The notes under the pieces are model-generated. The model did no database searches. It was not told where the DNA came from and worked only from the letters and a program-made list of their open reading frames with translations. This document shows, piece after piece, positions 34,423 through 62,445 of a stretch of DNA of 64,000 nucleotides. Source of the DNA: Deltaproteobacteria bacterium (lineage in GTDB: Bacteria > Myxococcota > XYA12-FULL-58-9); the NCBI GenBank assembly GCA_016218825.1, contig JACRCV010000051.1:1-64000 (forward strand). The letters run 5' to 3'. The position numbers and the translations under genes are program-made. Within the stretch, counting starts at the first letter, position 1, and each line of letters begins with the position of its first letter.

Positions 34423-35289
34423 ATGGACACCGCCAAGCTCGCGACCCGCCTCGAGGAGATCCTCCTCAAGAAGCTCGACGACGGGAAGCTCGTCCTGCCG
34501 ACGATGCCGAAGGTGGCGCTGGCGCTGCGCAGTCGCCTCGACGACGAGAGCACCGCCGATCTGCGCGCCTTGAGCGCGTTGCTCGAGGAAGACCCGCTCC
34601 TCGCGACCCGGGTGCTGCAACTCGCCAACAGCGCGATGTACCGATCCCGCGACGAGATCAAGGCGCTGGGGCACGCCGTCACCCGACTCGGCATCCGCAA
34701 GCTGCGCGAGGTGCTCTACGCCGCCACCGCGCAGCAGGTCTACACCTCGCGGCAACCGCAGCTCTCCCAGGTCATGAACAGCCTCTGGGACCACTCCCTG
34801 GTCGTCGCCCGCCTGGCGCGCGACATCCACGGCATCTCCGGGGCCTCGGACTCGGAGCCGGCGTTCTTGGCGGGGCTCTTGCACGACGTCGGCAAGGCGA
34901 TCGCCGCGGTGCACCTGGTCGAGGTGGAGCGTGACCTGCCCACCGACAAGGCGCGCAGCTGGATCGGCCGCGAGGAGTTCACCGACGCCTTGAACCGGGT
35001 CAACCGACCGTTGGGCGCGGCTCTGGCGCAGAAATGGGATCTGCCCGCGATCGTCACCCAGGCGGTCAAGGGCTCGGACGACTACGACAGCAGCGACCGG
35101 CAGTCGGTGGTGAACGCGGTGCGCTTCGCCAACGCCCTGGCGAAGAAGCACGGCTTCGCGGTCGGCGTCGTCAACGAGGAGGAGATCGGCGCGCAGATCA
35201 TGATCGGCTGCTCGGTCCTGGGCATCGACCAGACCGTGGTGGACGAGCTGATCAAGAAGCTCGAGGCCCAACACCGCACGGCGCGCTGA
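34423..35289 (+). CDS. HDOD domain protein 1
   Basis: 288 residues, a stand-alone HDOD domain. N-terminal LPTMPKVALALRSRL, LLEEDPLLATRVLQLANSAMY, then AVTRLGIRKLREVLY and LLHDVGKAIAAVHL with the HD pair retained. HDOD proteins are output or scaffold modules in signal transduction, often tied to motility or biofilm control, and their enzymatic activity is unproven. It opens the signalling island (34-46.8 kb) and is followed 50 bp later by a second HDOD gene. Confidence 0.9.
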   Translation: MDTAKLATRLEEILLKKLDDGKLVLPTMPKVALALRSRLDDESTADLRALSALLEEDPLLATRVLQLANSAMYRSRDEIKALGHAVTRLGIRKLREVLYAATAQQVYTSRQPQLSQVMNSLWDHSLVVARLARDIHGISGASDSEPAFLAGLLHDVGKAIAAVHLVEVERDLPTDKARSWIGREEFTDALNRVNRPLGAALAQKWDLPAIVTQAVKGSDDYDSSDRQSVVNAVRFANALAKKHGFAVGVVNEEEIGAQIMIGCSVLGIDQTVVDELIKKLEAQHRTAR

Positions 35290-35339
35290 CGCCGTGATGT
35301 CCAGGGCGAAGGAGCGTCGGCATAGGATCTTGGTGGTCG

Positions 35340-36392
35340 ATGAGTCCACCGTTCCTCAAGCTCGGCCCAACCTCGCCGATGTACTTCGGTGCCCTCGTGA
35401 CTGCTCTGCCGGAGACCAGCGGCTCGATAAGCTCACGCTTGGCGCGGCTCTCCGGTTGGCCCATCGAACGGCCGCCGATGCTGAAGAGCCGGGCGATCGC
35501 CGCCTCGATCCTGGCGTCGGCGACGCTGTCCCGTCACCGCAGCAGCCAGACGCGACTCGAGGCCATGCCGATGGGCGCCCAGGAGGTCTTGAGCTGCGTC
35601 ACCGATCCCGACCTGCAGATCATCCCCTTCGTCGCCGTGGTCCAGCGCGACCCGGCGGTGGTCGGCGAGATCATCCGCGTCGCCAACTCCATCCTCTACC
35701 GCGGCCACGACCAGGTGAGCTCGCCGAAGGACGCGGTGATCCGCCTGGGCCTGGAAGAGGCCTGCCGCATCGCCGCCGTGGTCGCGAGCCGGGCGCTGTT
35801 TCGCGCCCGCTCCGAGAGCCTGTACGCGCTGCGGCCGGCGGTGTGGGACGAGCTCACCCACCACAGCCTGTGCACCGCCTACGGCTCGGCCTGGCTCTGC
35901 CGGCAACTAAGAGCCGCCGAGCCCGGCCTGGCGTTCTTGGCCGGGCTGTTCCACAACATCGGCAGCGTCGTGGCGTTGCACGTCCTCTTGCCCTTGGTGC
36001 ACGCCGGGGGCGTGCCGATCGAGGCCGACGACGAGATCTGCCACCTGGTGTGCGACCGCATCCATCACGAGCTCGGGCCGGAGCAGCTGCTCTACTTCAA
36101 CATGGCGCCGGAGATCGTCAGCGTCTGTATCCACGCCGCCGACCTCGACCTCCCCGCCGAGCCCGCCTTCAGGCTGCACCACGTGATCCGCGCCGTCGCC
36201 GGCCTGCTGGCGCTGCAACGGCAGTCCTTCGAGAACCTCGAGCTCAGCCGGGTGCTGGCGCAGAGCCTCGCCGCCCTGGCGCTGTCCAAAGAAACCACCG
36301 GTCTCCTCTACCGAGAGATGGCGAGCCTGGCCGACAAGGTGCGGATCATCCTCAATCTCCCGGCCAAGCCCACAGTCGTCGGCGGCCGCTGA
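35340..36392 (+). CDS. HDOD domain protein 2 (HD motif changed to HN)
   Basis: 350 residues. After a ~45-residue N-terminus the HDOD core is clear: VVQRDPAVVGEIIRVANSILY, AVIRLGLEEACRIAAVV, HHSLCTAYGSAWLC, and AGLFHNIGSVVALHVL, where the Asp of the HD pair is Asn. The C-terminus contains a further helical segment (QSFENLELSRVLAQSLAAL). ATG 35340 follows GGTGG at three bases; a downstream start is possible. Loss of the metal-binding Asp suggests a purely structural or ligand-binding role. In line with HDOD 1 and the hybrid kinase. Confidence 0.85.
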   Translation: MSPPFLKLGPTSPMYFGALVTALPETSGSISSRLARLSGWPIERPPMLKSRAIAASILASATLSRHRSSQTRLEAMPMGAQEVLSCVTDPDLQIIPFVAVVQRDPAVVGEIIRVANSILYRGHDQVSSPKDAVIRLGLEEACRIAAVVASRALFRARSESLYALRPAVWDELTHHSLCTAYGSAWLCRQLRAAEPGLAFLAGLFHNIGSVVALHVLLPLVHAGGVPIEADDEICHLVCDRIHHELGPEQLLYFNMAPEIVSVCIHAADLDLPAEPAFRLHHVIRAVAGLLALQRQSFENLELSRVLAQSLAALALSKETTGLLYREMASLADKVRIILNLPAKPTVVGGR

Positions 36393-36449
36393 CCGAGCCT
36401 CAAGTTCCCTACTGCGGCGTCGATGCAGAGAAACGGGAGGATCTCGTCC

Positions 36450-38866
<2,417 letters not shown>

Positions 38867-38870
<4 letters not shown>

Positions 38871-40081
38871 AGCGCCGGATCCTGTTCGTCGACGACGAGC
38901 CCCAGGTCCTCGAGGGCCTGCGGCTCCGGCTGCATCGGCAGCGCAGCCGCTGGGAGATGGCGTTCGCGGACGGCGGCAAGACGGCCCTCGAGCTCCTGGC
39001 GCGAGCGCCGGTCGACGTCATCGTCACCGACATGCGGATGCCGCAGGTGGACGGCGTCGCCCTGCTGAAGGAGGTGCAACGGCTCTACCCGCGGGTCGTT
39101 CGCATCGTGCTCTCGGGGCACGCCGAGCTGCAGGCGGCGCTGCAGGCGGTCCCGGTGGCGCATCAATTCCTCACCAAGCCGAGCGAGCCCGGCACCATCG
39201 AGAACGTGATCGAGCGCGCCTGCAACCTGCAAACCCTGGTGAACGACGAGACCGTGAAGCGCATCGTCGGCCAGATCGACATCCTGCCGTCGCTGCCGAA
39301 GGTCTACCATCAGCTGCTCGTGGCTTTGTCCACCGACGCCGGGTCAACCGCCGAGGTTGCCCGGATCCTGAAGCAGGACATGGCGATCGCGGCCAAGACC
39401 TTGCAGATCGTCAACTCGGCGTTCTTTCGCCTGTCGCGCTCCATCGTCAAGATCGAGGAGGCCGTCACCTACCTCGGCCTCAACACCATCAAGCACATCG
39501 TGCTGGCGGCCGAGGTGTTTCAGAACGGTCACGGGCGCCGCCCGCCGGCCGGCCTGTCGCTGGAGGAGCTGCAAGACCACGCCTACCTGGTGGGCGAGCT
39601 CGCCGCGAGCTTCTTCAAGGACCAACGGGCCAAGGAGGACGCGTTTGTCGCCGGCCTGTTGCACGACCTCGGCAAGCTGGTGTTGGCCATGGAGCTGCCG
39701 GCGGCGGTCGAGAAGGTGCACGCCGAGATGCGGTCGGCCGGGTGCTCGATGCACTGCGCCGAGGAGAGGGTCTTGGGCGTGACCCACGCCGAGGTCGGCG
39801 GCTACCTGCTCGGGATCTGGGGCCTGCCATACCCGATCATCGAGGCGGTCGCCAACCACCACGCCCCGAGCCGGGTGGACACCAAAGAGCTCGGGATCCT
39901 CGCCGCCGTCCACCTCGCCGACGGCCTGGCAAACGAGGTGCAAGGTGCGCCCGCCGGACCCGCGCCGCAATCGGTGCTCGACCAGACGTTCCTCACCCGC
40001 CTCGGCGTCGTCGAGCAGGTCGACGGCTGGCGGGAGCTCGCAGAGCGCCACGTCCGCAACCGCGGGAGCGCCGGCTCATGA
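38867..40081 (+). CDS. Receiver-HDOD response regulator
   Basis: 404 residues. Receiver (ILFVDDEPQVLEGL; phosphoacceptor in VIVTDMRMPQVDG; KP switch in FLTKPSEP) followed by a HDOD domain (QIDILPSLPKVYHQL, ILKQDMAIAAKTLQIVNSAFF, GLLHDLGKLVLAMEL, and AVANHHAPSR near the C-terminus). All receiver residues are intact, so it should be phosphorylated, most simply by the hybrid kinase whose stop codon overlaps its GTG start. It overlaps the next response regulator by ATGA. Output probably through HDOD interactions rather than DNA binding. Confidence 0.93.
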
Positions 40082-41241
40082 GCGCCACCCGCGTCCTCTG
40101 CGTCGACGACGAGCCGCAGGTGATCGACGGCTTGGTGCTGAGCTTGGGCCGCAGCTACGAGGTCCAGCGCGCCTTGGGGGGCGCCGAGGGTCTCGTGGTG
40201 CTGCGGGAGAGGGGTCCCTTCGCGGTGGTCCTCTCGGACATGCGAATGCCGGGTATGGACGGGGCGACGTTCTTGGCGCAGGTGCGGCAGTGCGCGCCGG
40301 ACACTACCCGCATGCTCTTGACCGGCCACGCCGACTTGGAGGCGACCATCCAGGCGGTCAACGAGGGCCAGATCTTTCGCTTCCTCTCCAAGCCCTGCCC
40401 ACCCGACGCGTTGCGCAAAGCCTTCGCGGCCGCCGCCGAGCAGCACCGGCTGGTGACCGGCGAGCGGGTGCTCCTCGAGGAGACCTTGCACGGCAGCATC
40501 AAGGCGCTCGTCGACGTCCTGTCGCTGACCAATCCGATCGCCTTCGGCCGCGCGACCCGCATCAAACAGCACGTCAGCGAGCTCGCGGTGAAGCTCCGCC
40601 TCCCGGAGCGATGGCAGGTGGAGGTCGCGGCGATGCTGTCGCAATTGAGCTCCATCGTGTTGCCGCCCGAGACCGTCGAGAAGGTCTACTTCGGCGGCCC
40701 GCTGACCGCGCACGAGGCCGATCAGGTGGCGCGGCTGCCGGCGGTCACCGAGCGCCTCCTCGCCCACATCCCACGGCTGGAGGTCGTCCGCGGCATCCTC
40801 GCCACCTACGGCAAGTCGCGGCGCCGCCCCGACCCGGCGCACGACGACGCCGACGGCGTGCTCGTCGAGCGCGGCGCCCAGCTGCTGAAGATCGCCGTCG
40901 ACTTCGACGTCCTCGAGGCGCAAGGCAACCCTGCCGGCGTCGCGGTCGGCACGATGCGCGGCCGCGCCGAGTGCTACGCCCCCGAGATCTTCGAGGCCTT
41001 CGCCGCCCTGCGCGGCGCCGACGCCCCGACGCTCGAGGTTCGAGAGGTCCCGGTCGCCGCCATTCGCGAAGGAATGGTGTTCGCCGAGGACGTCAAGCTC
41101 GCCACCGGCACGCTTCTCGCGGCCCGCGGCTACGAGGTCACCGCGAGCTTCGTCGAGCGGGCGCGCAACTTCCGCCCCGGGTTCATCAAAGAGCCGGTGC
41201 GGGTGATCCTGCGCGGAGCGCCGGGCGACCGCCCGGCCTGA
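40078..41241 (+). CDS. Receiver plus degenerate HD-GYP-like response regulator
   Basis: 387 residues. Intact receiver (VLCVDDEPQVIDG; VVLSDMRMPGMDG; FLSKPCPP). The second half aligns by eye with the HD-GYP c-di-GMP phosphodiesterase fold (LRLPERWQVEVAAML, then GPLTAHEADQVARLPAVTER). However, the HD pair is replaced (AAMLSQLSSIVLP) and no GYP motif follows. A further C-terminal domain (REVPVAAIREGMVFAEDVKL) is typical of such HD-type regulators. It is therefore predicted to be catalytically dead and to work by binding. Third gene of a translationally coupled trio. Confidence 0.82.
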   Translation: MSATRVLCVDDEPQVIDGLVLSLGRSYEVQRALGGAEGLVVLRERGPFAVVLSDMRMPGMDGATFLAQVRQCAPDTTRMLLTGHADLEATIQAVNEGQIFRFLSKPCPPDALRKAFAAAAEQHRLVTGERVLLEETLHGSIKALVDVLSLTNPIAFGRATRIKQHVSELAVKLRLPERWQVEVAAMLSQLSSIVLPPETVEKVYFGGPLTAHEADQVARLPAVTERLLAHIPRLEVVRGILATYGKSRRRPDPAHDDADGVLVERGAQLLKIAVDFDVLEAQGNPAGVAVGTMRGRAECYAPEIFEAFAALRGADAPTLEVREVPVAAIREGMVFAEDVKLATGTLLAARGYEVTASFVERARNFRPGFIKEPVRVILRGAPGDRPA

Positions 41242-41301
41242 GCCGCCGCCGCTACGGGCGCCAGCAGAATCCGCCCGAGCGAGCAGGGAGACGCTGGCGC
41301 C
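41220..41301. terminator. Hairpins between convergent genes
   Basis: Two GC-rich inverted repeats: GCCGGGCG/CGCCCGGC (41220-41237), overlapping the end of the response-regulator gene, and GGCGCCAGC/GCTGGCGCC (41257-41265 and 41293-41301) with a 27-base loop. No T-run follows, so termination is plausible but unproven. Confidence 0.3.
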
Positions 41302-41379
41302 GGCCCGGCTCGGGGCGGGGGAGAGCCCGAGGAGCACGGCGGCGAGGATCGGGCAGGCGCGCAGACCGCGGCGCCCCAT
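41242..41379 (-). pseudogene. Orphan signal-peptide fragment
   Basis: On the minus strand, ATG 41379 lies five bases beyond the stop of the TPR/Ig-like gene and opens with a convincing signal peptide, MGRRGLRACPILAAVLLG, cut near PSRAGA. After about 45 residues the frame runs antisense into the response regulator and loses protein character. It looks like the 5' end of a secreted-protein gene whose remainder was lost, but a very short secreted peptide cannot be excluded. Confidence 0.25.
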
Positions 41380-41386
41380 GACGGTC

Positions 41387-42583
41387 TCAGGCGACGAAGG
41401 TCGCGCCGCTGAACTCGTCGGCGGCCGGGCGCATCGCGTTGCCGTAGGCGTCGACGCCGCGGAAGCGGAAGCAGAGGTGGCGGGGGTCGAGGGTGGCGTC
41501 GGCGGTCGCGTTCTGGCGCACCTGGAAGTACACGGTCGCGACGTTCGACTCGGTGTCGTAGGTGACGCCCTGCGGCAGCGGCAGGACGACCGCCTCGCTC
41601 GCCGGCAAAGGTCGGCCCCAGTTGTACCCCAGCCCCGGCCCCGCCGATGGCGCGCGGCTGATCGACCAGTTGGCGGGATTCATCACCGACTGTGGATCCA
41701 TCGCCTTGCTGAACACGACCTCGAGGCCGAAGACCTGGGTGGCGGCGGGGGTCGCGAGGCCGCCGCCGAGGGTCGCGACCGGGGTGCCGGGACCGAACGT
41801 CGTCGGAAAGCCGCCGCCGCTGTAGGCCCCGGAGATCGCCGGCGGCTCGTGCTGCTCGATGTAGCCCTGCAAGACGGTCGCGAGCGCCGGATCACGGGAC
41901 TGAAGGGTCGTGAGCACTCGCGCCGCCTCGTCCCAGCGGCCCTGGTCGACGTAGACCGAGCCCAGATCGACGTACGCCGAGGTGAAGTCCCACTTGAGGG
42001 TCAACGTCCGCTCGAACATCAGGACGGCCTCGTCGCGCTTCCCGGCTTTTGCGTACGCCTGCCCGAGCGCGTAGTAGCCGCCGTAGTGCCCGGGGTTCAT
42101 GCCGACCACTTGTCGAAACCAGCCCTCGGCCTCGGTGAGCTTCCCGGTCGCCATCGCCACCTGGCCGAGGGCGAGCTCAGCGGTGGCCGAGCTCGGATCC
42201 ACCCGGTGCGCGGCCTGGTACTGGACGGCGGCCTCGGCGTAGCGTGCGTCACTGAAGTAGACGTTGCCGAGCTTGAGGCGAACGTCGGCGTTGGTGGGCG
42301 AGATCCTGACGGCGATGCGGTACGCGGCGATGGCGTCGGCGCTTTGCCCCTGCCGCAGATAGACGCTCGCCAACAGGTCGTAGGCCTGCGTCGCCGCGTC
42401 GGGGTTGGTGTCGAGCGCCGCGGCCCGTTTGAAGTCGAGGATCGCGCCGTTCAGGTCGCCGGCGAGCGCCCGGTCGGCGCCCTTGGACAAGGCGGCCTGC
42501 GCCAACGCGCTGCGGCCATCTTGTTGCCCGGAGAGCGTCGAGAACAGGCTCTCGGCCGCGATCGATAGTTGGTTGAGGCTCAT
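41387..42583 (-). CDS. TPR protein with C-terminal Ig-like domain
   Basis: 398 residues. Residues ~25-270 hold six or more TPR units (ALAGDLNGAILDFKRAAALD; YDLLASVYLRQGQSADAIAA; LGQAYAKAGKRDEAVLMFER). The last ~130 residues form a beta domain (GLEVVFSKAMDPQSVMNPANW; RHLCFRFRGVDAYGNAMRPA) like bacterial Ig/SbsA-type modules. There is no signal peptide, so its location is unclear. ATG 42583 is chosen with GGTGG upstream; ATG 42589 is the alternative. It is divergent from the small response regulator across a region with a sigma-54-like promoter facing the other way. Confidence 0.75.
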   Translation of the reverse strand: MSLNQLSIAAESLFSTLSGQQDGRSALAQAALSKGADRALAGDLNGAILDFKRAAALDTNPDAATQAYDLLASVYLRQGQSADAIAAYRIAVRISPTNADVRLKLGNVYFSDARYAEAAVQYQAAHRVDPSSATAELALGQVAMATGKLTEAEGWFRQVVGMNPGHYGGYYALGQAYAKAGKRDEAVLMFERTLTLKWDFTSAYVDLGSVYVDQGRWDEAARVLTTLQSRDPALATVLQGYIEQHEPPAISGAYSGGGFPTTFGPGTPVATLGGGLATPAATQVFGLEVVFSKAMDPQSVMNPANWSISRAPSAGPGLGYNWGRPLPASEAVVLPLPQGVTYDTESNVATVYFQVRQNATADATLDPRHLCFRFRGVDAYGNAMRPAADEFSGATFVA

Positions 42584-42680
42584 GACCATCGCCACCCGCC
42601 AAAAGGACACCGCGCTCGAGCATCGACGGGCCGACGTCGATCTTGAGACCGCGGGCGTCGCGCGGCCGCGAGTCGCGGGT

Positions 42681-42696
42681 TGGAACGGTTTCTGCA
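42681..42696 (+). promoter_or_regulatory. Candidate sigma-54 promoter before a response regulator
   Basis: TGGAACGGTTTCTGCA matches the -24/-12 consensus TGGCACG-N4-TTGCA with GG and GC at the required spacing and two mismatches. Predicted transcription would begin near 42707, giving a leader of about 27 bases with a G-rich ribosome-binding region before ATG 42734. Confidence 0.5.
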
Positions 42697-42733
42697 GGGC
42701 CTTCGCCGTCAGCATTTCGAGGGGGGTGGGATC

Positions 42734-43153
42734 ATGTCGCGGCGGGTCCTGGTGATTGACGATGATCAAGCCTTGCGCGGCACGTTGTGCCGGTTGTTCA
42801 AGCGGTTGGGCTTCGACGCGGTCTTGGTGGCGGCCGCGGACGAGGCCTTGCGGGTGGCGGACGGTTGCCAGTTCGCCGTGATCTTGTCCGACTACCACCT
42901 GGACGGCGGCAACGCCGCCCATCTCCTCCGAGATCTCGCGGCCCTGCAGCCTGACGCCTCGGTCATCGTGATGAGCGGCGACCACTCCCTCGATGCGGCG
43001 GCCTTCGCCCACGCCGGCACTTCGGTCGAGGTTGTCCACAAGCCGTTCACCCTCGGGCCGCTCTTGGAAGTGCTGAAAGATGGCCTGAGTAGAAACCTCG
43101 CCCGCCTCGCCAGCCGCGATCGGAGCGAGGCCGCGATGTGGAGCGCGCCCTGA
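42734..43153 (+). CDS. Single-domain response regulator
   Basis: 139 residues, a CheY-like receiver without output domain: VLVIDDDQALRGTL, phosphoacceptor in ILSDYHLDGG, switch residue Ser in VIVMSGD, and the conserved Lys in VVHKPFTL. ATG 42734 follows GGGGTGGG. Stand-alone receivers next to kinases often relay phosphate or bind the flagellar switch. It lies between a sigma-54-like promoter and the HDOD 4 gene. Confidence 0.9.
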   Translation: MSRRVLVIDDDQALRGTLCRLFKRLGFDAVLVAAADEALRVADGCQFAVILSDYHLDGGNAAHLLRDLAALQPDASVIVMSGDHSLDAAAFAHAGTSVEVVHKPFTLGPLLEVLKDGLSRNLARLASRDRSEAAMWSAP

Positions 43154-43184
43154 AGCGCCGGATTGCCGACACCCCAATGCCGAT

Positions 43185-43200
43185 CGTCAAACAATTGACG
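43185..43200. promoter_or_regulatory. CGTCAA-N4-TTGACG palindrome, site 1
   Basis: CGTCAAACAATTGACG, a perfect palindrome with 6-bp arms, 65 bp upstream of the HDOD 4 start. The same arms occur at 48338 and 62769 in front of sigma-54 flagellar promoters. Candidate binding site for the NtrC-type activator encoded at 46939. Confidence 0.6.
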
Positions 43201-43265
43201 CCCGGTCGCCGCAGCGCGGCGGCCGGCCTGACGCCCCGCCCCCCTATGCGCCCCGGAGCCCGACC

Positions 43266-44144
43266 GTGACCCAGCCGTTGGACGACATCATCGGAAAGAT
43301 CGACGGCCTGCCGACCATCCCTGCCGTGTCGCATCGCGTCGGCGAGCTCATCCACGACCCGCGCGCCGACGCCCGGGCCATCGCCGCCCTGCTGCGCAGC
43401 GATCAGAGCCTCACCGCCAAGGTCCTGAAGCTCGCGAACTCCGCCTACTACGGCATCCCCGGCGGCGTCACCGACGTGACCCGCGCGATCTCGTTCCTGG
43501 GTTTCAACACCCTCTACCAGCTGGTCCTGAGCGTGTCGGTGTTCTCGGTGCTCCGCGGCAGCGACGCGTCGACCCTGGACATCCGCGAGCTCTGGAAACA
43601 TTCGCTCGGCTGCGGGCTGCTCGCCGAGCGCATCGCCGCGCATCTCGGCATCGCCGACACCAACGTCTGCTTCACCGGCGGCCTGCTGCACGACATCGGC
43701 AAGGTCGCGCTCTTGCAAGTGGCGCCCGCGCGTTTCGTCGAGGCGGTGGCGTTGGCCCGCGCCAAGAGCCTGTCGATGGCCGCCGCGGCGACCGAGTGCG
43801 GCTTGCCGACCCACGTCGCGGTGGGCAGTCGTCTCGCCGAGCGCTGGCGGTTCCCGATGCCGCTTAGGGTCGCCATCGCCCATCAGCGATACCAGGCGCC
43901 CGAAGCGCGGCAGGCTCTCGCCGCCAACCTGGCGCCGTTCGCCGATATCGCCGCCCTCGCCAACGTCCTCTGCCGGCGCTTCGGGTTCGGCGATCCCGGC
44001 GACCCCGTGCTCCCAGAAGTCGACCCGGCGCTGCTCGAGCGCCTCAACCTGACCACCGCCCAGATCGACAAGCTCAAGACCGAGCTCTTGCGGGCCGCCG
44101 AGCGCTCCAAGGTGATGCTCGACTTGATGTCGTCGTCCGCCTGA
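43266..44144 (+). CDS. HDOD domain protein 4
   Basis: 292 residues, stand-alone HDOD domain: GLPTIPAVSHRVGELI, LLRSDQSLTAKVLKLANSAYY, AISFLGFNTLYQLVLSVSVF, GGLLHDIGKVALLQV with the HD pair intact. Start is GTG. Preceded by the 16-bp palindrome shared with flagellar promoters, which suggests co-regulation with motility. Convergent with the hybrid kinase gene ending at 44224. Confidence 0.92.
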   Translation: MTQPLDDIIGKIDGLPTIPAVSHRVGELIHDPRADARAIAALLRSDQSLTAKVLKLANSAYYGIPGGVTDVTRAISFLGFNTLYQLVLSVSVFSVLRGSDASTLDIRELWKHSLGCGLLAERIAAHLGIADTNVCFTGGLLHDIGKVALLQVAPARFVEAVALARAKSLSMAAAATECGLPTHVAVGSRLAERWRFPMPLRVAIAHQRYQAPEARQALAANLAPFADIAALANVLCRRFGFGDPGDPVLPEVDPALLERLNLTTAQIDKLKTELLRAAERSKVMLDLMSSSA

Positions 44145-44173: not shown

Positions 44174-44268
44174 CCGCCGTTGCCGCTGGCCGTTACCGTC
44201 ACTGTTGCCGGTCGCCGTTGCCGTCAACCGTCGCCGTTGCCATTGCCATCGTCGTCATCGCCGTCGCG
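44174..44268. repeat. Imperfect GCCGTT-type hexamer repeat
   Basis: A run of degenerate six-base units (GCCGTTGCCGCTGGCCGTTACC... and GTCGCCGTTGCCATTGCC) spans the gap between two convergent genes and continues into the kinase 3' end, where it encodes the C-terminal DGDDDDGNGNGDG tail. A slippage-prone microsatellite is the simplest explanation. Confidence 0.5.
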
Positions 44269-45507
44269 ACTGATCGGCAGCTCCATCACGAACAGGGCGC
44301 CTGGCGGCGGCCGCGCGACACACCGCAGATCACCGCCGTGCCGCACAGCGATCTCGCGCGACAACCACAGACCGAGGCCGTTCCCGAGCGCATCGGGCTT
44401 GGTGGTGAAGAACGGCTGAAACAATCGCGCCCGGGCGTCCTCCGGCACGCCCGGCCCGGAGTCCTCGACCTCGAGCAGGACGTTCTTCTCCGTGCACCGC
44501 ACCCGCACGTCGATGGTGCCCCGACCTCCCATCGCCTGCACCGCGTTGAGCATCAGGTTCACGAGCACCTGGATGATCTCGCCCTCGTGGCCGATGACGC
44601 CACCGAGGCCCGGTGTGACCGCAGTGCGGAAGGTGACACCCCGCTTGTACTCCGAGGCCACGAGCCGCACCGCGCGGGCGACGCAGCGCTCCAGCTCCAC
44701 CGCCCGGTAGCGGGCCCGCCGCGCCGGCGCCGAATAGGTCCTGAGGCCGTCTACGATCTCCTGCAGCCGGTGCGTGCTGTCGAGACAGTCGGCGCCGATC
44801 TGCTTGATCTCCTGTGCGGCCGCCGCCGGCGCGTCCTCTCGCCACCGGGCGCGCAACGCGGCGATGAAGTCGACGCCGTCCGGCGTAGCGCTCTCGAGCC
44901 CGACTTGCAGGCGCTCCAGGAGCGGATCGAGCTGGACCGCTACCTGGGGCAGGGCCTGGAGGTTGGCCGTCAGACACGCGAGCGGCGAGCGCAGCTCGTG
45001 GGCGACGCCCGCGACCAGGGTTCCGACCGCCGCCATCTTGCTCAGGCGGGAGATCGCCTGCTCGGTCTGCTCGCGAACGGTGCGCTCGAACATCAGCTCG
45101 TCGCGGGACCGAATCGCGGCTTGGCGCTGCTCGAGGGCGCGCCTGAGAACGATACCGAACTCCTCGCCCCAAGGCTTGCCGAGCTTGTAGGCGCCACCCG
45201 GCGTCGCCGCGGCGACGCGCGCCGCGTCATCGGAGTATCCCGTGAGCAGGATCCGGACGATGTCTCGATCGAGCTCGAACGCTCGCCTTATCACCTCGAC
45301 GCCCGAGATCCCCGGCATCCGCACGTCGGAGACCACGGCGTCGAAGTGCTGCCGCTCGAGCGCTTCGAGCGCCGCCTCGCCGTCCGCGGCCGGCGTGACG
45401 CCATACTGCTCGGAGAGCTCGTCGATGAGCGACGCCAACACGTGTGGGTCGTCATCCACCACCAGGATCGTCGGACGATCGGCCGCCGCCATCTCATCTC
45501 TTGTCAT
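44224..45507 (-). CDS. Receiver-histidine kinase
   Basis: 427 residues. N-terminal receiver (ILVVDDDPHVLASL; VVSDVRMPGISG; LGKP near residue 110), coiled linker, HisKA domain with intact H-box GVAHELRSPLACL, and HATPase (NLMLNAVQAM; DSGPGVPEDA; FQPFFTTKP; GNGLGLWLS). Cytoplasmic. The C-terminal tail DGDDDDGNGNGDG derives from a nucleotide repeat. Its start overlaps the stop of the PAS kinase upstream (ATGA), so the two form a coupled pair. Probably signals to receivers within the island. Confidence 0.92.
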   Translation of the reverse strand: MTRDEMAAADRPTILVVDDDPHVLASLIDELSEQYGVTPAADGEAALEALERQHFDAVVSDVRMPGISGVEVIRRAFELDRDIVRILLTGYSDDAARVAAATPGGAYKLGKPWGEEFGIVLRRALEQRQAAIRSRDELMFERTVREQTEQAISRLSKMAAVGTLVAGVAHELRSPLACLTANLQALPQVAVQLDPLLERLQVGLESATPDGVDFIAALRARWREDAPAAAAQEIKQIGADCLDSTHRLQEIVDGLRTYSAPARRARYRAVELERCVARAVRLVASEYKRGVTFRTAVTPGLGGVIGHEGEIIQVLVNLMLNAVQAMGGRGTIDVRVRCTEKNVLLEVEDSGPGVPEDARARLFQPFFTTKPDALGNGLGLWLSREIAVRHGGDLRCVARPPPGALFVMELPISRDGDDDDGNGNGDG

Positions 45508-46793
45508 CGATGTCTCCCGTGTTCAGCCGGTGTCGGGACCGGCGCCGCCGGTATCGGCAGCTCGAGCACGAAGCGCGTTCCCTTGGGTGAGACCGCCTCG
45601 GCCGACAGGCGCCCCCCGTGAGAGTGCGCCAGCCGATGCGCGGTGCACAGCCCGAGGCCGGTGCCGTCCGGCCGCATGGTCACGAACGGCTCGAACAGCC
45701 GCGCCAGGACCTCCTGCGGCAAACCGGGGCCGGTGTCCTCGACCGTGGCGCGGATGACTCCCGCGGCCACCGCGGTGGTCACCACCAACGTGCCCGCGTC
45801 GCCCATGGCCAAGAGCGCGTTGTCGATCAGGTTCGCGAACAGGTGCTGGAGCTCGTCCGGGTTGCCTTCGAGGCGAGGGATCGGCGCGTAGCGCCGTTCG
45901 ACTCGGATCGCGCCGACGCGGTGCTCGAACATCAAGAGCGCCGCGTCGATCTCCTCGCTGAGGTTCAACGCCGCCTGCTTGGGCTCCGTCCCGCCGCCTC
46001 GATGCGCCTTGCGCATGTCTTCGATCAGGCGCTTTATCCTGGCCGCGGCGTCCTGCTGCCGAGTCAGCAGCTCGAGGAGGCGCTGACTCGACGCATCACG
46101 CGGAAACTCGGTGGTAATCTTCGTCATTTGGCGGCAGTTGGAGATCAACGCGGCGAGCGGGTTGTTGATGCCGTGGGCGACGCCGGCGGTGAAGGCGCCG
46201 ATGGCGGCCTGCCTGGTGAGCGCCGCCACCCGGCGCGACATGCGGGCAAGCTCGCCGTTTCTTCCCTCGAGGTCGCGGCTCACCCGCAACAGCTCCTCGT
46301 GGGCCTGGCGCAACGCCATGTGCTTGGTGATGACCTCGCGCTCCAGCAGGCGGCGCTCGGTAGTGTCTCTCAAGACGCAGGCGGCCAGGGCTCCGGCGTC
46401 GTCCGGGACGTGCGCCACCGCCACCGAGAGAAAGCGGGAGTGGCCGTCGGCGCCCCGCAGCCGCAAATCGTCGTGGAGCCCGGGCATGTCCAAGACCCCG
46501 GCGTCGAAGTCAGCGGTGTCGCACGCCTGCCCGTCCCCTTGCGGGAACAGGCGGGTGACCGTGGTGCCGACCAGGTCGTTGAGCGCGTATCCCGTCATCT
46601 CTTCGATGCGGCGGTTGGCGCTCTCGATCCGCAAGGTCGCCAGGCGCACCGAGAGCACCGCGTCGCTCGCGTACTCGAACAGCAGGCGGTACACGCCGTC
46701 CGGAAGGCGCGAGGCCACAGGAGAGTCGCCGTAGGCGCCGCCGCCGGATGCGGCGACGCCGGACGCGCCTGACAGGTCGACGACTGGGAGCAT
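45504..46793 (-). CDS. PAS histidine kinase with altered H-box
   Basis: 429 residues. PAS domain at about 33-145 (YRLLFEYASDAVLSV...RIESANRRIEEMTGY), coiled coil, HisKA-like helix and HATPase (NLIDNALLAM; DTGPGLPQEV; FEPFVTMRPDGTGLGL). The H-box reads GVAHGINNPLAAL: His207 is present but the following acidic residue, normally Glu, is Gly208. That residue is important for autophosphorylation chemistry, so activity may be reduced or of a different kind. ATG 46793 has GGAGG three bases upstream. Divergent from the sigma-54 activator gene, its likely functional partner in NtrBC-like fashion. Confidence 0.88.
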   Translation of the reverse strand: MLPVVDLSGASGVAASGGGAYGDSPVASRLPDGVYRLLFEYASDAVLSVRLATLRIESANRRIEEMTGYALNDLVGTTVTRLFPQGDGQACDTADFDAGVLDMPGLHDDLRLRGADGHSRFLSVAVAHVPDDAGALAACVLRDTTERRLLEREVITKHMALRQAHEELLRVSRDLEGRNGELARMSRRVAALTRQAAIGAFTAGVAHGINNPLAALISNCRQMTKITTEFPRDASSQRLLELLTRQQDAAARIKRLIEDMRKAHRGGGTEPKQAALNLSEEIDAALLMFEHRVGAIRVERRYAPIPRLEGNPDELQHLFANLIDNALLAMGDAGTLVVTTAVAAGVIRATVEDTGPGLPQEVLARLFEPFVTMRPDGTGLGLCTAHRLAHSHGGRLSAEAVSPKGTRFVLELPIPAAPVPTPAEHGRHR

Positions 46794-46938
46794 GGTCCTC
46801 CACGGGTGTCCACGCGATGAGACCCCGACCACGCATCGACGCTTCCCTCCGACCCTTGAGGATCGCGTGCGCAGGTTGCAAACTTGTGGATTGCGAATCG
46901 ATGCGGTAGGAAGGTCGGCCGTACCCGAAGGGATGTGG

Positions 46939-58201: not shown

Positions 58202-59500
58202 ATGTCCATTCTCAGCTCGATGTATGCAGCCGCCGCCGGCCTCGGCGCTCACGGTAACGCCATCGGCGTGGTCAGCGACAACATCGCCAACGTCGACACC
58301 ATCGGCTTCAAGGCGTCGCGCGGCCGCTTCGAAGACGTCCTAGGCAGCACCGTCGCCTCGGGCCTGCTCGCGAACGTTCCCGGCCAGGGCTCCCGACTCG
58401 CCGGGGTCGACGCGATGTTCCGGCAGGGCGCCCTGCTCAGCACCGGGGTCGCGACCGACCTGGCGATCGAGGGCAACGGCTTCTTCATGGTGCGCGGTGA
58501 CTTCCAGGGCGTCGACGGCTCGTTCTTCACCCGCGACGGTCAGTTCCACCTCGACGCCAACGGCCATCTGGTGAACCCACACGGGCTGGACGTCCAGGGC
58601 TATCTCGCCGATGCGCAGGGCAACCTGGGCGCGGCGCTCACCGACGTCATCATCCCGCCGACCGCCAACGTGCCGCCGCGCGCGACGACGCGCACCGACA
58701 TCGTCGTCAACCTCGACGCCGCCAGCGTCATTCCGCCGGCGTTCGATCCCTTGAATCCGAGCACCACGTCGAACTTCTCATCGTCGGTGACGGTGTACGA
58801 CTCGCTCGGCGCGGCGCACAACGTCGACGTCTACTTCCGGCAAGCCGCACCCGGCAGCTGGGAGTGGCACGCGCTCGTGGACGGCGGCGAGCTCACCGGC
58901 GGCACCGCCGGAGTCGCGACCGAGATCGCCAACGGCACCCTGACCTACACCACCGACGGACGGCTGGACACCGAGGCCATCGGCGCCTCGACCGCCGACT
59001 TCATCGGCGCCACCCCCGGCCAGGTCATCACCTTCGACTTCGGCGACGCCATCACCACCGACGGCGGCACCGGCATGCTCGGCTCCACGGCCTACGCGGC
59101 GCCGTCGACGTTGACCGCGTTGACCCAGGACGGCTACGCCTCCGGCTCCCTCGCCGGCATCACCGTCGCCGAAGACGGCAGAGTCACGGGCGCGTTCACC
59201 AATGGCGAGCGGCGACTCTTGGGCCAGGTGGCGTTGGCGACGTTCCGCAACCAGAACGGGCTGCTGCGCGCCGGCGCCGGGATGTACGTGAGCTCCGATG
59301 CCTCCGGACAGGCGCTGGTCGGCAGCGCCGGCAGCGGCGGCCGCGGCAACATCAGCGCCGGCTCGCTGGAGCAGTCCACGGTGGACCTGGCGCAGGAGTT
59401 CGTGAACCTGATCGCCTACCAGCGCGGCTTCCAGGCCAACTCCAAGGCGGTGCGCACCGCCGACGACATGCTGAGCGAGCTGGTGTCGATGACCAGGTAG
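58202..59500 (+). CDS. flgE: Flagellar hook protein FlgE
   Basis: 432 residues. N-terminal MYAAAAGLGAHGNAIGVVSD-type helix with NIANVDTIGFKASR, the LAIEGNGFFMVRGD motif, a D1-like core, and the C-terminal SLEQSTVDLAQEFVNLIAYQ followed by RGFQANSKAVRTADDML. Builds the hook. GAGGAG precedes the ATG. A 69-bp gap after flgD is the only sizeable gap in the operon. Confidence 0.97.
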   Translation: MSILSSMYAAAAGLGAHGNAIGVVSDNIANVDTIGFKASRGRFEDVLGSTVASGLLANVPGQGSRLAGVDAMFRQGALLSTGVATDLAIEGNGFFMVRGDFQGVDGSFFTRDGQFHLDANGHLVNPHGLDVQGYLADAQGNLGAALTDVIIPPTANVPPRATTRTDIVVNLDAASVIPPAFDPLNPSTTSNFSSSVTVYDSLGAAHNVDVYFRQAAPGSWEWHALVDGGELTGGTAGVATEIANGTLTYTTDGRLDTEAIGASTADFIGATPGQVITFDFGDAITTDGGTGMLGSTAYAAPSTLTALTQDGYASGSLAGITVAEDGRVTGAFTNGERRLLGQVALATFRNQNGLLRAGAGMYVSSDASGQALVGSAGSGGRGNISAGSLEQSTVDLAQEFVNLIAYQRGFQANSKAVRTADDMLSELVSMTR

Positions 59501-59538
59501 AACCGCGCCGCCCGTCGGGCGGCGGGGCGCCTTTCCCC

Positions 59539-60849
59539 ATGCGGTTGAGCTGGCACGACGGCGCGGCGTATCTCGAGCCCGACCCCAAGGACGCGACCTT
59601 GCGGCAGGGCTCGGTGATGGTCGTCGACGACAACGCCGTGGTCGTCAAGGTCATGGCGCTGCAGCTCGAGGACTGGGGTTACGCCGTGACCCGGGCCCAC
59701 GGGGCCGAGGCGGCGCTCTTGCACTTCGACCCCAACGCCACCGAGGCGGTGGTCACGAACCTGAGCCTCGCGGGGCTGGGCGGGCTGGGGCTGCTCACCG
59801 AAGTTCACCGCCGCGCCGTGCACGTGCCGGTGATCGTGTTGGTGTCACGCCTCGAATCCGCCGAGGTGCTGGCGGCCATGCGCCGGGGCGCCTTCGACTG
59901 CATCGTGCTCGAGGAGGTACCGATCGTCCGCCAGGTGCTGGTCGGCGAGCCGCCCGCCGACGCCGTCGATCCCTTTCGGGCGGCAGTGACCCGCGCCGTG
60001 AACCACTCCCGCCTCGTGAGCTACGGCAACCTGCTGAACGCGCAGCTATCGCGCTCGAACGCGGAGCTCAAGGCGGAGCAGCGCCGGCTCACCGAGACCC
60101 TCGAGACCCTCAAACAGACCCAGGCGTCGCTGGTCCAGGCCGAGAAGGCCGCCGGGCTCGTGGCCGCCACCCATGGGGTCGCGAACGCCATCAAGACCCC
60201 ACTCGCGGTGTTGGACGCGGGCCTCGGCCTGCTGCGCGAGTGGGTCACCGCGGTCCTGGCCGGCCGCGAGCCGCCGCCGGCGGTGACCGACGACCTGCCG
60301 TCGATCCTCGAGGACATCGACACCAACCTCGAGCGCATCAGCGACACCGTCGAGGGCATGCACCGCCTCGCCAAGACCGGCGCCGTCTACCTCAAGAAGG
60401 TGGAGCTGACCGAGGTCGCGAAGGCGGTCGTGCTCGAACAGCAGTCGAGAGCCCCGGACGGGGTCGAGCTCCGGCTCAGCACCTCCAAGACGCCGCCGGC
60501 CCGCGCCAACCCCGAGATGGTGGCCGAGGTCCTCCGGGCCCTGGTCGAAAACGGCCTCGAGGCCTGCGGCGACGCCGGGCGGCGCGGTTCGGTCACGGTG
60601 CGCCTGTTCGCCGCCGACGGCCGGCCGTCGATCGAAGTGAAGGACGACGGCGAAGGCATCCCGGAGGAGGACCGCGAGCGGGTGTTCGACCCGTTCTTCA
60701 CCACGCGCGGCAAGCGCCACGCCAAGGGTCTCGGGCTGACGCTGGCCCGCGAGCTCGCGACCCGGATGCACGGCAGTCTGGCGCTCGTGAGCGCGGCCGG
60801 ATGCGGCACCACGGTCACCGTCGCCCTCGAGCCCTGGCGCCCCGACTGA
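59539..60849 (+). CDS. Receiver-histidine pseudokinase in the flagellar operon
   Basis: 436 residues. N-terminal receiver fold (VMVVDDNAVVVKVM) whose phosphoacceptor position is Asn74 (AVVTNLSLAGLGG), and the usual Lys is absent (VLEEVP). A coiled coil (about 165-205) leads to a HisKA-like helix reading GVANAIKTPLAVL, where the catalytic His is Asn216. The ATP-binding domain is intact: N-box Asn338, DDGEGI (369-374), FDPFFTT and KGLGL (396-400). It is therefore probably unable to carry out normal phosphotransfer but able to bind ATP. Co-transcribed after flgE, so a checkpoint or scaffold role in flagellar control is inferred. ATG 59539 lacks a strong ribosome-binding site. Confidence 0.85.
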   Translation: MRLSWHDGAAYLEPDPKDATLRQGSVMVVDDNAVVVKVMALQLEDWGYAVTRAHGAEAALLHFDPNATEAVVTNLSLAGLGGLGLLTEVHRRAVHVPVIVLVSRLESAEVLAAMRRGAFDCIVLEEVPIVRQVLVGEPPADAVDPFRAAVTRAVNHSRLVSYGNLLNAQLSRSNAELKAEQRRLTETLETLKQTQASLVQAEKAAGLVAATHGVANAIKTPLAVLDAGLGLLREWVTAVLAGREPPPAVTDDLPSILEDIDTNLERISDTVEGMHRLAKTGAVYLKKVELTEVAKAVVLEQQSRAPDGVELRLSTSKTPPARANPEMVAEVLRALVENGLEACGDAGRRGSVTVRLFAADGRPSIEVKDDGEGIPEEDRERVFDPFFTTRGKRHAKGLGLTLARELATRMHGSLALVSAAGCGTTVTVALEPWRPD

Positions 60850-60854
60850 GCCGC

Positions 60855-61640
60855 TCAGTCTCCGGCGGGACGAGGTTTGGGCGCCTCGAGGACGAAGTCG
60901 ACGCGGCGGTTCGCGGCGCGCCCGGCCACGGTGGCGTTGGACGCCACCGGGTGAAACGAGGCATAGCCGGCGGCCGAGAGCTCGGTCGCCGGGAACGCGA
61001 ACTCCTCGAGCAGGTAACGCACCACCCGCACCGCGCGCGCCGTGGACAGCTCCCAGTTGTTCCGGAACTTGCCGACCCGAGACGGCTGGTCGTCGGTGTG
61101 CCCTTCGACCCGGAGCGCGCACCCGGCGCTCATCAGCTCTTCGGCGAGGAGGTTCAAGGTCGGCAGGGACTCGGCGCGGATCTCGGCCTCGCCGGGGTTG
61201 AAGAACGCGGCCGCCGCGAGGCTGACGATGATGTGCTCCCGCAGCACCCGGACCGACACCTTGTCCTGCAGGCCTTTGACGTCGGCGTAGCGCTGCAGCT
61301 GGCGGGCGAGCTTCTTGACCTGCTTGGAGTTGGCCTCCGCGGCGCCCGCGGTGGTGTTGCCTTGCGGCAGCCCGGGGACGACCTTCTTGTCGGGCAGCGT
61401 CAGGTCCTTGATAGAGGTCGGGCCGCTCGTCGGGTATCCGAGGACCGGCTTGTCCTGGCGGAAGAACTCGAGGTTGAAGGCGGCGCGGGTCGAGAACACC
61501 ATCTTGCCGGCCTTGCGGGCGTCGACCGTCGAGATCGCGTAGAGCGAGGTGAAGAACGCGAACAGCAGCGTGATGAAATCGGCGTACGACACCAGCCAGC
61601 GCTCGTTGTTGACGTGCTCTTCGGGTTTGCGGCGACGCAC
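60855..61640 (-). CDS. motB: Flagellar stator protein MotB
   Basis: 261 residues. GTG 61640 start gives the family N-terminus RRRKPEEHVNNERWLVSYAD, with the proton-binding Asp in SYADFITLLFAFF (single membrane helix). A linker/plug region and the OmpA-like peptidoglycan-binding domain follow (LRVEGHTDDQPSRVGKF; NWELSTARAVRVVRYLLEEF; ANRRVDFVL). It starts seven bases after motA. It converges on the pseudokinase gene, with 5 bp between the ends. Confidence 0.96.
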   Translation of the reverse strand: MRRRKPEEHVNNERWLVSYADFITLLFAFFTSLYAISTVDARKAGKMVFSTRAAFNLEFFRQDKPVLGYPTSGPTSIKDLTLPDKKVVPGLPQGNTTAGAAEANSKQVKKLARQLQRYADVKGLQDKVSVRVLREHIIVSLAAAAFFNPGEAEIRAESLPTLNLLAEELMSAGCALRVEGHTDDQPSRVGKFRNNWELSTARAVRVVRYLLEEFAFPATELSAAGYASFHPVASNATVAGRAANRRVDFVLEAPKPRPAGD

Positions 61641-61647
61641 GATCGCC

Positions 61648-62445
61648 TCACGCCGCCTGACGGCGGCGCTCGGCGGCGCCCTTGTCGGCCGCGCCGGCGC
61701 CCTGCAACCCACACAGGCCGTTGAGCTTCTCTTCGATGATCCTCGGGTTCTCGCCGTCGACGATGGCGGCAACACCGTTGAGGATGACCTCGTAGCGCAG
61801 CATCGCCCGTTGATGGCGGGCTTTGAGCTTGCCGGAGATCGGCAGGAACAAAACGTTGGCGCTGCCGACCCCGTACACCGTCGCGACGAAAGCCACGGCG
61901 ATACCGTGCCCGAGCTTCTCGGGCTCGGTGAGGTTCTGCATCACCTGGATCAGTCCGAGCACCGCGCCGAGGATGCCGATGGTCGGAGCGTAGCCGCCGG
62001 CGGCCTCGAACACCTTCGAGCCGGCCTCGCCCTCGCCCTCGAGGAACTGCATCTCGCCCTCCATCGCCTCGCGCACCACCCGAGAGTCGGAGCCGTCGAC
62101 GGCCAGGTTCAACGCCTTCTTGAGGAAGGGATCGGTGATCAGGACGGCGTCGCCTTCCAGCGACACGACCCCGTCGCGACGGGCCTTCTGGGCGAAACCC
62201 ACCAGGCTCTTGACCAACTCCGCCAGGTCCAGCTTGGGCTCGAACACCACCGAGGCCAGCCCTTTGCCGGCCCGCTTCAGCGCCGGCACCGGAAAGGTCA
62301 GGAACACGGCGCCGATGGTGCCGCCGAAGACGATGATGGCGGCGGTGGGTTGCGTGATCCAGAGGATCTTGCCGCCCTCCATCAAGAACCCGCCGAAGAT
62401 AGCCGACAACGCCAGCGCCACGCCGACGACACTCGCGGCATCCAT
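61648..62445 (-). CDS. motA: Flagellar stator protein MotA
   Basis: 265 residues, four membrane segments: near 5-22, 30-50, GGYAPTIGILGAVLGLIQVM (about 148-167) and IAVAFVATVYGVGSANVLFLPI (about 182-203). The cytoplasmic loop between helices 2 and 3 carries the charged residues that touch FliG. Forms the proton channel with MotB. The ribosome-binding site lies inside the end of flbD. Confidence 0.96.
   Translation of the reverse strand: MDAASVVGVALALSAIFGGFLMEGGKILWITQPTAAIIVFGGTIGAVFLTFPVPALKRAGKGLASVVFEPKLDLAELVKSLVGFAQKARRDGVVSLEGDAVLITDPFLKKALNLAVDGSDSRVVREAMEGEMQFLEGEGEAGSKVFEAAGGYAPTIGILGAVLGLIQVMQNLTEPEKLGHGIAVAFVATVYGVGSANVLFLPISGKLKARHQRAMLRYEVILNGVAAIVDGENPRIIEEKLNGLCGLQGAGAADKGAAERRRQAA

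Follow-up and report, generated by a model that had tools for sequence, protein, structure and literature searches.

The gene between flgE and the stator genes in the flagellar cluster of a myxobacterium encodes, as judged by its sequence, a pseudo-histidine kinase that is maintained under purifying selection in two species of one genus. An Asn stands in place of both the phospho-accepting Asp of its receiver domain and the phospho-accepting His of its H-box, and the protein likely performs no phosphotransfer in the sense of autophosphorylation. The comparison of this one species pair indicates that its altered parts are at least as constrained as the working ones of an intact control kinase. 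Both pseudo-histidine kinases and pseudo-receivers have been described and are poorly understood, and here the two occur together in one short soluble protein. As the kinase residues (His and acid) are lost and the phosphatase Thr/Asn is kept in the two species, the role of such a pseudokinase, be it phosphatase or mere binding, becomes directly testable.

The features that we refer to lie in the window, the whole 64,000-nucleotide stretch analysed here (contig JACRCV010000051.1, positions 1 to 64,000), and are collected in Table 1. We take the ATG at 59539 as the start, since the orthologue can be aligned pairwise from residue 1. The HisKA match scores 19.7 bits against the Pfam cut-off of 26.9 and is thus sub-threshold, as expected for a degenerate H-box. 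A structure model built from nine sequences (mean pLDDT 71, pTM 0.45) is good for the DHp and CA domains and poor for the domain arrangement, and only secondary structure was taken from it.

Table 1. Features of the pseudo-histidine kinase gene and its surroundings (window coordinates)
Feature	Position	Strand	Basis and remarks
flgE (hook)	58202..59500	+	38 bp upstream of the pseudokinase gene, same strand
9-bp inverted repeat in the flgE–pseudokinase gap	59506..59524	+	19 bases; stable hairpin, fold z = -1.83; T-run absent
Pseudo-histidine kinase gene	59539..60849	+	436 aa; receiver, helical linker, DHp, CA; ORF and translation, Pfam
Pseudo-receiver domain, residues 25-127	59611..59919	+	Pfam Response_reg 26-122, E 2e-14; 60% identity between the two species
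Asn74 (AAC), replaces receiver phospho-Asp	59758..59760	+	Alignments; identical codon in orthologue
Val102, replaces receiver Thr/Ser	59842..59844	+	Alignment with solved receivers; orthologue also Val
DHp domain, residues about 199-281	60133..60381	+	Weak HisKA match; two long predicted helices
His212, one helical turn before Asn216	60172..60174	+	Conserved in orthologue; His in 0/72 related kinases
Asn216 (AAC), replaces phospho-acceptor His	60184..60186	+	Column His in 72/72 related kinases; identical codon in orthologue
Ala217, replaces catalytic acid next to His	60187..60189	+	Glu in 67/72 related kinases; orthologue Ala
Thr220 (orthologue Asn), phosphatase Thr/Asn position of HisKA kinases	60196..60198	+	Kept; function from PMC3510030
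CA (HATPase_c) domain, residues 323-433	60505..60837	+	Pfam HATPase_c 325-431, E 4e-21; motif columns
motB and motA (stator)	60855..62445	-	Convergent with the pseudokinase gene

Replaced residues in the receiver and the H-box

A preliminary description of this DNA had named Asn74 as the receiver position that should be Asp and Asn216 (in GVANAIKTP) as the H-box position that should be His. Both assignments are correct: the first was verified in the translation and in alignments, and the second is in the right register. For the H-box, we aligned the pseudokinase and its orthologue with 72 related kinases taken from the search loci and the window, some of them near-duplicates. We found three further losses that had gone unremarked, namely Ala217, Val102, and the receiver Lys.

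In the N-terminal domain, the Lys is absent from both the pseudokinase and the orthologue, and the metal-binding pair D30 and D31 is kept. A PF00072 match together with missing active-site residues (N74, V102, no Lys) places the domain among the pseudo-receivers, and on these residues the pseudokinase's own receiver is predicted not to be phosphorylatable. Like other bacterial pseudo-receivers (PMC12632262), such as the FrzS receiver (PMC1974792), it has the receiver fold without the phospho-Asp and lacks the Thr/Ser and the Lys; it differs from them in keeping D30 and D31 and in forming the N-terminal part of a fusion with a kinase core whose own phospho-site is also gone.

In place of the acceptor His followed by an acid that marks a HisKA-type kinase, both species have N216–A217, so that the residue for autophosphorylation is missing from both orthologues, as the definition of a pseudo-histidine kinase requires. 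P221 is kept, in a column that is Pro in 72 of the 72 kinases. The phospho-site is missing in 0.9% of HisKA domains and in 2.0% of receiver domains (PMC12632262), hence each loss alone is uncommon yet not rare. A sequencing error was considered and rejected, the codon being AAC at both positions in two independent assemblies.

The CA domain and a candidate function

One guide to what such a protein might do comes from CrdS, a myxobacterial kinase that becomes inactive as a kinase when either the His or the Glu beside it is missing (PMC3510030). The CrdS H371A mutant still lowers the half-life of CrdA~P from 53.5 to 2.6 min, the phosphatase activity of the E372A mutant is undiminished, and it is N375 on which that activity depends (PMC3510030). 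The pseudokinase shares with CrdS and the other NtrB-like HisKA kinases of Myxococcus the DHp–CA core, a GVAHEINNPL-type H-box, DPFFTT, GLGL, and the T/N plus Pro; where they have His–Glu it has Asn–Ala, a combination expected to remove the kinase and not the phosphatase activity (PMC3510030). With its kinase residues gone and T/N220 and P221 kept, it shows the same split as the CrdS mutants.

A second precedent is DivL of Caulobacter, in which a kinase core has come to sense a phosphorylated regulator (PMC4211667). DivL likewise has a DHp–CA core whose acceptor His is replaced in all orthologues, keeps most kinase motifs, and is conserved most strongly around the replaced residue (PMC4211667). 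In contrast, DivL is alphaproteobacterial, has Tyr at the His position and carries several PAS domains, where the pseudokinase has Asn216 and a receiver. In a search of solved structures, DivL is a distant match (E 2e-7, residues 308–430), and the pseudokinase lacks the features that define the DivL family; DivL is a functional analogue of the pseudokinase and not its orthologue.

On these two analogies, the pseudokinase would bind, and perhaps dephosphorylate, another response regulator, in a phosphatase-only or DivL-like manner gated by its pseudo-receiver, and we put the probability of this reading at about one half. Normal autophosphorylation would be impossible with N216 in place of the acceptor His and A217 in place of the acid beside it, if CrdS and DivL are a guide to kinase inactivity. 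By the same analogies the conserved DHp helix of the dimer would be the docking site of the putative response regulator, whose phosphate would be removed through the kept T/N220; alternatively, the regulator may be plainly sensed or sequestered, as by DivL. The N-terminal pseudo-receiver may be a fixed module for interaction or ligand binding that gates the activity, and any nucleotide bound by the CA domain would determine the conformation. A narrower version is more tentative still, namely that the protein is a genus-specific, dedicated response-regulator phosphatase that evolved from a kinase by losing the two kinase-specific residues and keeping the phosphatase residue, and that is controlled by its pseudo-receiver and regulated without phosphorylation.

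Several points count against binding and dephosphorylation of a regulator. The conservation rests on one comparison of two orthologues, the gene has different neighbours in the two genomes, and the T/N and Pro could be retained for helix structure alone. Both DivL (PMC4211667) and a PleC His mutant (PMC3510030) are without phosphatase activity, which means that such activity cannot be deduced from sequence. Furthermore, kinases that lack the His are no more frequent where phosphatase activity can do without this residue, and this speaks against phosphatase as the general role of pseudokinases (PMC12632262). In the literature we found no usable paper on the NtrB H139N mutant or on nucleotide effects on phosphatase activity. 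The probabilities that we attach to the readings in this report are not meant to sum to one, since the flagellar reading considered below overlaps with the others.

The CA domain has the N, G1, F, and G2 boxes of a HisKA-type (NtrB-like) kinase, with two deviations. The earlier claim that all ATP motifs are intact can be upheld for most of them, given the HATPase_c match and the retention of N338, D369, G371, G373, and GLGL at 397–400; it fails at A395, which replaces the first Gly of GxGLGL in the G2 box, and at A334, which replaces the first N-box Asn. The two columns are Gly and Asn, respectively, each in 66 of the 72 related kinases, and both residues are lost in the orthologue too. Since DivL, whose motifs are kept, binds a nucleotide analogue only weakly (PMC4211667), ATP binding by the pseudokinase is not to be assumed. 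The ATP-dependent signalling suggested in the preliminary description can draw on a recognised HATPase domain, and is weakened by these two replacements and by the lower conservation of the CA domain relative to the receiver and the H-box.

The CA domain also bears on a different reading, in which the protein is a heterodimer subunit that phosphorylates the His of a normal partner kinase in trans. The clear HATPase_c match and the kept N338, G1 box, and GLGL would allow this, and several histidine kinases are known to trans-phosphorylate within their dimers. Heterodimers with a pseudokinase have been reported for ChrS/HrrS (PMC9491836). However, the genome holds no close paralogue that would share the dimer interface, its best match reaching 110 bits against 857 for the protein itself, and A395 and A334 depart from the ATP motifs. 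We regard a partner-phosphorylating subunit as improbable.

Genomic setting and relocation of the gene

The flagellar cluster of this genome continues through fliL, fliP, flhBA, flhFG, and fliA, and the location of the pseudokinase gene between flgE and the stator genes had been offered as a functional clue. The location is right for this species, and the clue does not extend to the orthologue, which lies outside the flagellar cluster. In the sister species (G001), flgE directly neighbours motB; the orthologue is preceded, at a distance of 6 bp, by an HDOD-domain gene and followed by two M16 peptidase genes. The M16/CAP block of the present genome is on contig C105 and does not contain the pseudokinase gene, and we found no close counterpart of the HDOD neighbour in this genome. 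As the site used in either species is vacant in the other, the move of the gene came after their divergence. Placement in the flagellar operon is thus peculiar to this species; co-transcription with flgE is plausible here but does not speak for a conserved role in the flagellum.

These observations weigh on the possibility that the protein is a flagellar checkpoint whose function is tied to the location of its gene between flgE and motBA, a reading that concerns context. It gains from the short same-strand interval to flgE within a large flagellar cluster and from the presence of flagellar genes in the sister species as well. Against it stand the position of the sister's gene outside the cluster with flgE and motB adjacent, the stable hairpin between flgE and the gene, and the flagellar clusters read between flgD/flgE and fliL or motAB in eight more members of the phylum, all of which lack the gene. 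No terminator was called at the inverted repeat that forms the hairpin, and it is at most a processing or attenuation element. Overall, we think a checkpoint role unlikely, and any link of the pseudokinase to motility is one that we infer. Nor is the protein a standard flagellar NtrB-type kinase of the FlgS/FlrB kind, from which it differs in having no His, in not lying beside a sigma-54 regulator, and in being absent from the flagellar cluster of the sister species.

The surroundings offered some further observations. In a genome of the same order (G004, L120:10119-11928), the gap between flgE and motB is occupied by unrelated ORFs, one of them 384 aa long, that run on the motB strand, and the convergent flgE–motB spot may be a tolerant insertion site. 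The patchy occurrence of FlgE, in just 31 of 117 relatives in the phylum and spread across families, suggests that flagella were lost repeatedly. Four HDOD-domain genes (34423, 35340, 38867, and 43266) lie among receiver/PAS kinases at 34423–44144 of the window, upstream of the flagellar cluster; an HDOD gene also adjoins the sister's pseudokinase.

Conservation of the altered H-box

Searches of 117 relatives, and of 195 genomes of the phylum with a profile, yielded a single orthologue, which belongs to the sister species in the genus (L039:15505-16869, minus strand; 49% identity). The next best match scored 160 bits against more than 850, and neither set contained an orthologue outside the genus. 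A short-peptide scan, not exhaustive, of contigs from about 85,000 species returned just general kinases of at most 40% identity, and a degenerate DNA pattern for a VAN-x-(I/L)-x-(T/N)-P-L H-box matched only the two orthologues and, by chance, a PRPP synthetase. The orthologue has AAC at positions 74 and 216, Ala217, and Val102 likewise. The normal Asp and His that a local mutation would have left in relatives were not seen, N74 and N216 being present as well in the sole close orthologue found.

The two proteins are 83% identical in the H-box stretch (residues 205–222), 60% in the receiver, and 43% in the CA domain, the CA domain being less conserved than either of the others. For a control pair, an intact receiver-kinase (window 44224–45507) and its orthologue in the sister species, the corresponding values are 61%, 57%, and 47%. 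The altered H-box looks to be under selection, as it is the best-conserved segment and exceeds the control pair there. In every domain of the pseudokinase pair pN is below pS, in one species pair whose synonymous sites are near saturation. The earlier proposal that selection lies behind the Asn replacements is therefore supported, and relaxed decay is unlikely, because the sister species has the same replacements, one of which falls in the best-conserved stretch.

A further reading is a working kinase in which His212 is a shifted phospho-acceptor. The orthologue has retained His212, although the column is mostly Ala (57 of 72 related kinases) and never His among those kinases, and the residue lies four positions from N216 on one continuous predicted helix. 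A displaced His has similarly been suggested for Caulobacter CCNA_03265, a kinase homologue without the aligned His and with another His nearby on the same helix (PMC11481889). That protein, however, is a hybrid kinase that keeps its receiver Asp, whereas the receiver here, which could have taken the phosphate, is dead and N-terminal. Moreover, the residue after His212 is Gly213 and not the acid that CrdS requires (PMC3510030), and the GVA-x-x-I-x-T/N-P-L frame puts N216, not H212, at the His position. The preliminary description had likewise found His212 unsupported by alignment, and we consider a kinase working through this residue highly unlikely.

A decaying kinase gene heading for loss is the least credible reading of all, since its single-genus distribution, different genomic positions, and several motif losses are outweighed by an ORF that is open at full length in both species, by an overall identity of 49% against 43–45% for the intact kinase pair, by a most conserved part that is the altered H-box, and by pN below pS in every domain.

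The H-boxes of three other kinases of this genome are also of note. The best paralogue of the pseudokinase (L041:6494-8725, minus strand, contig C29), a receiver plus kinase of 25–27% identity, keeps the His and has Ala next to it (AHALNTPL). In the window, a PAS-histidine kinase beside a sigma-54 regulator (45504–46832, minus strand) keeps the His and has Gly for the adjacent acid (AHGINNPL), and its orthologue in the sister species (L156:4038-5174) has Ser after the His (AHSVNNPL); by the CrdS data this kinase would be kinase-poor and phosphatase-competent. The neighbouring receiver-kinase that served as control (44224–45507, minus strand) shows the reverse: it keeps the His and acid and has Ser for the phosphatase Thr/Asn (HELRSPL), with Ala in the sister species (HEMRAPL), and the two neighbours may divide the kinase and phosphatase roles between them.
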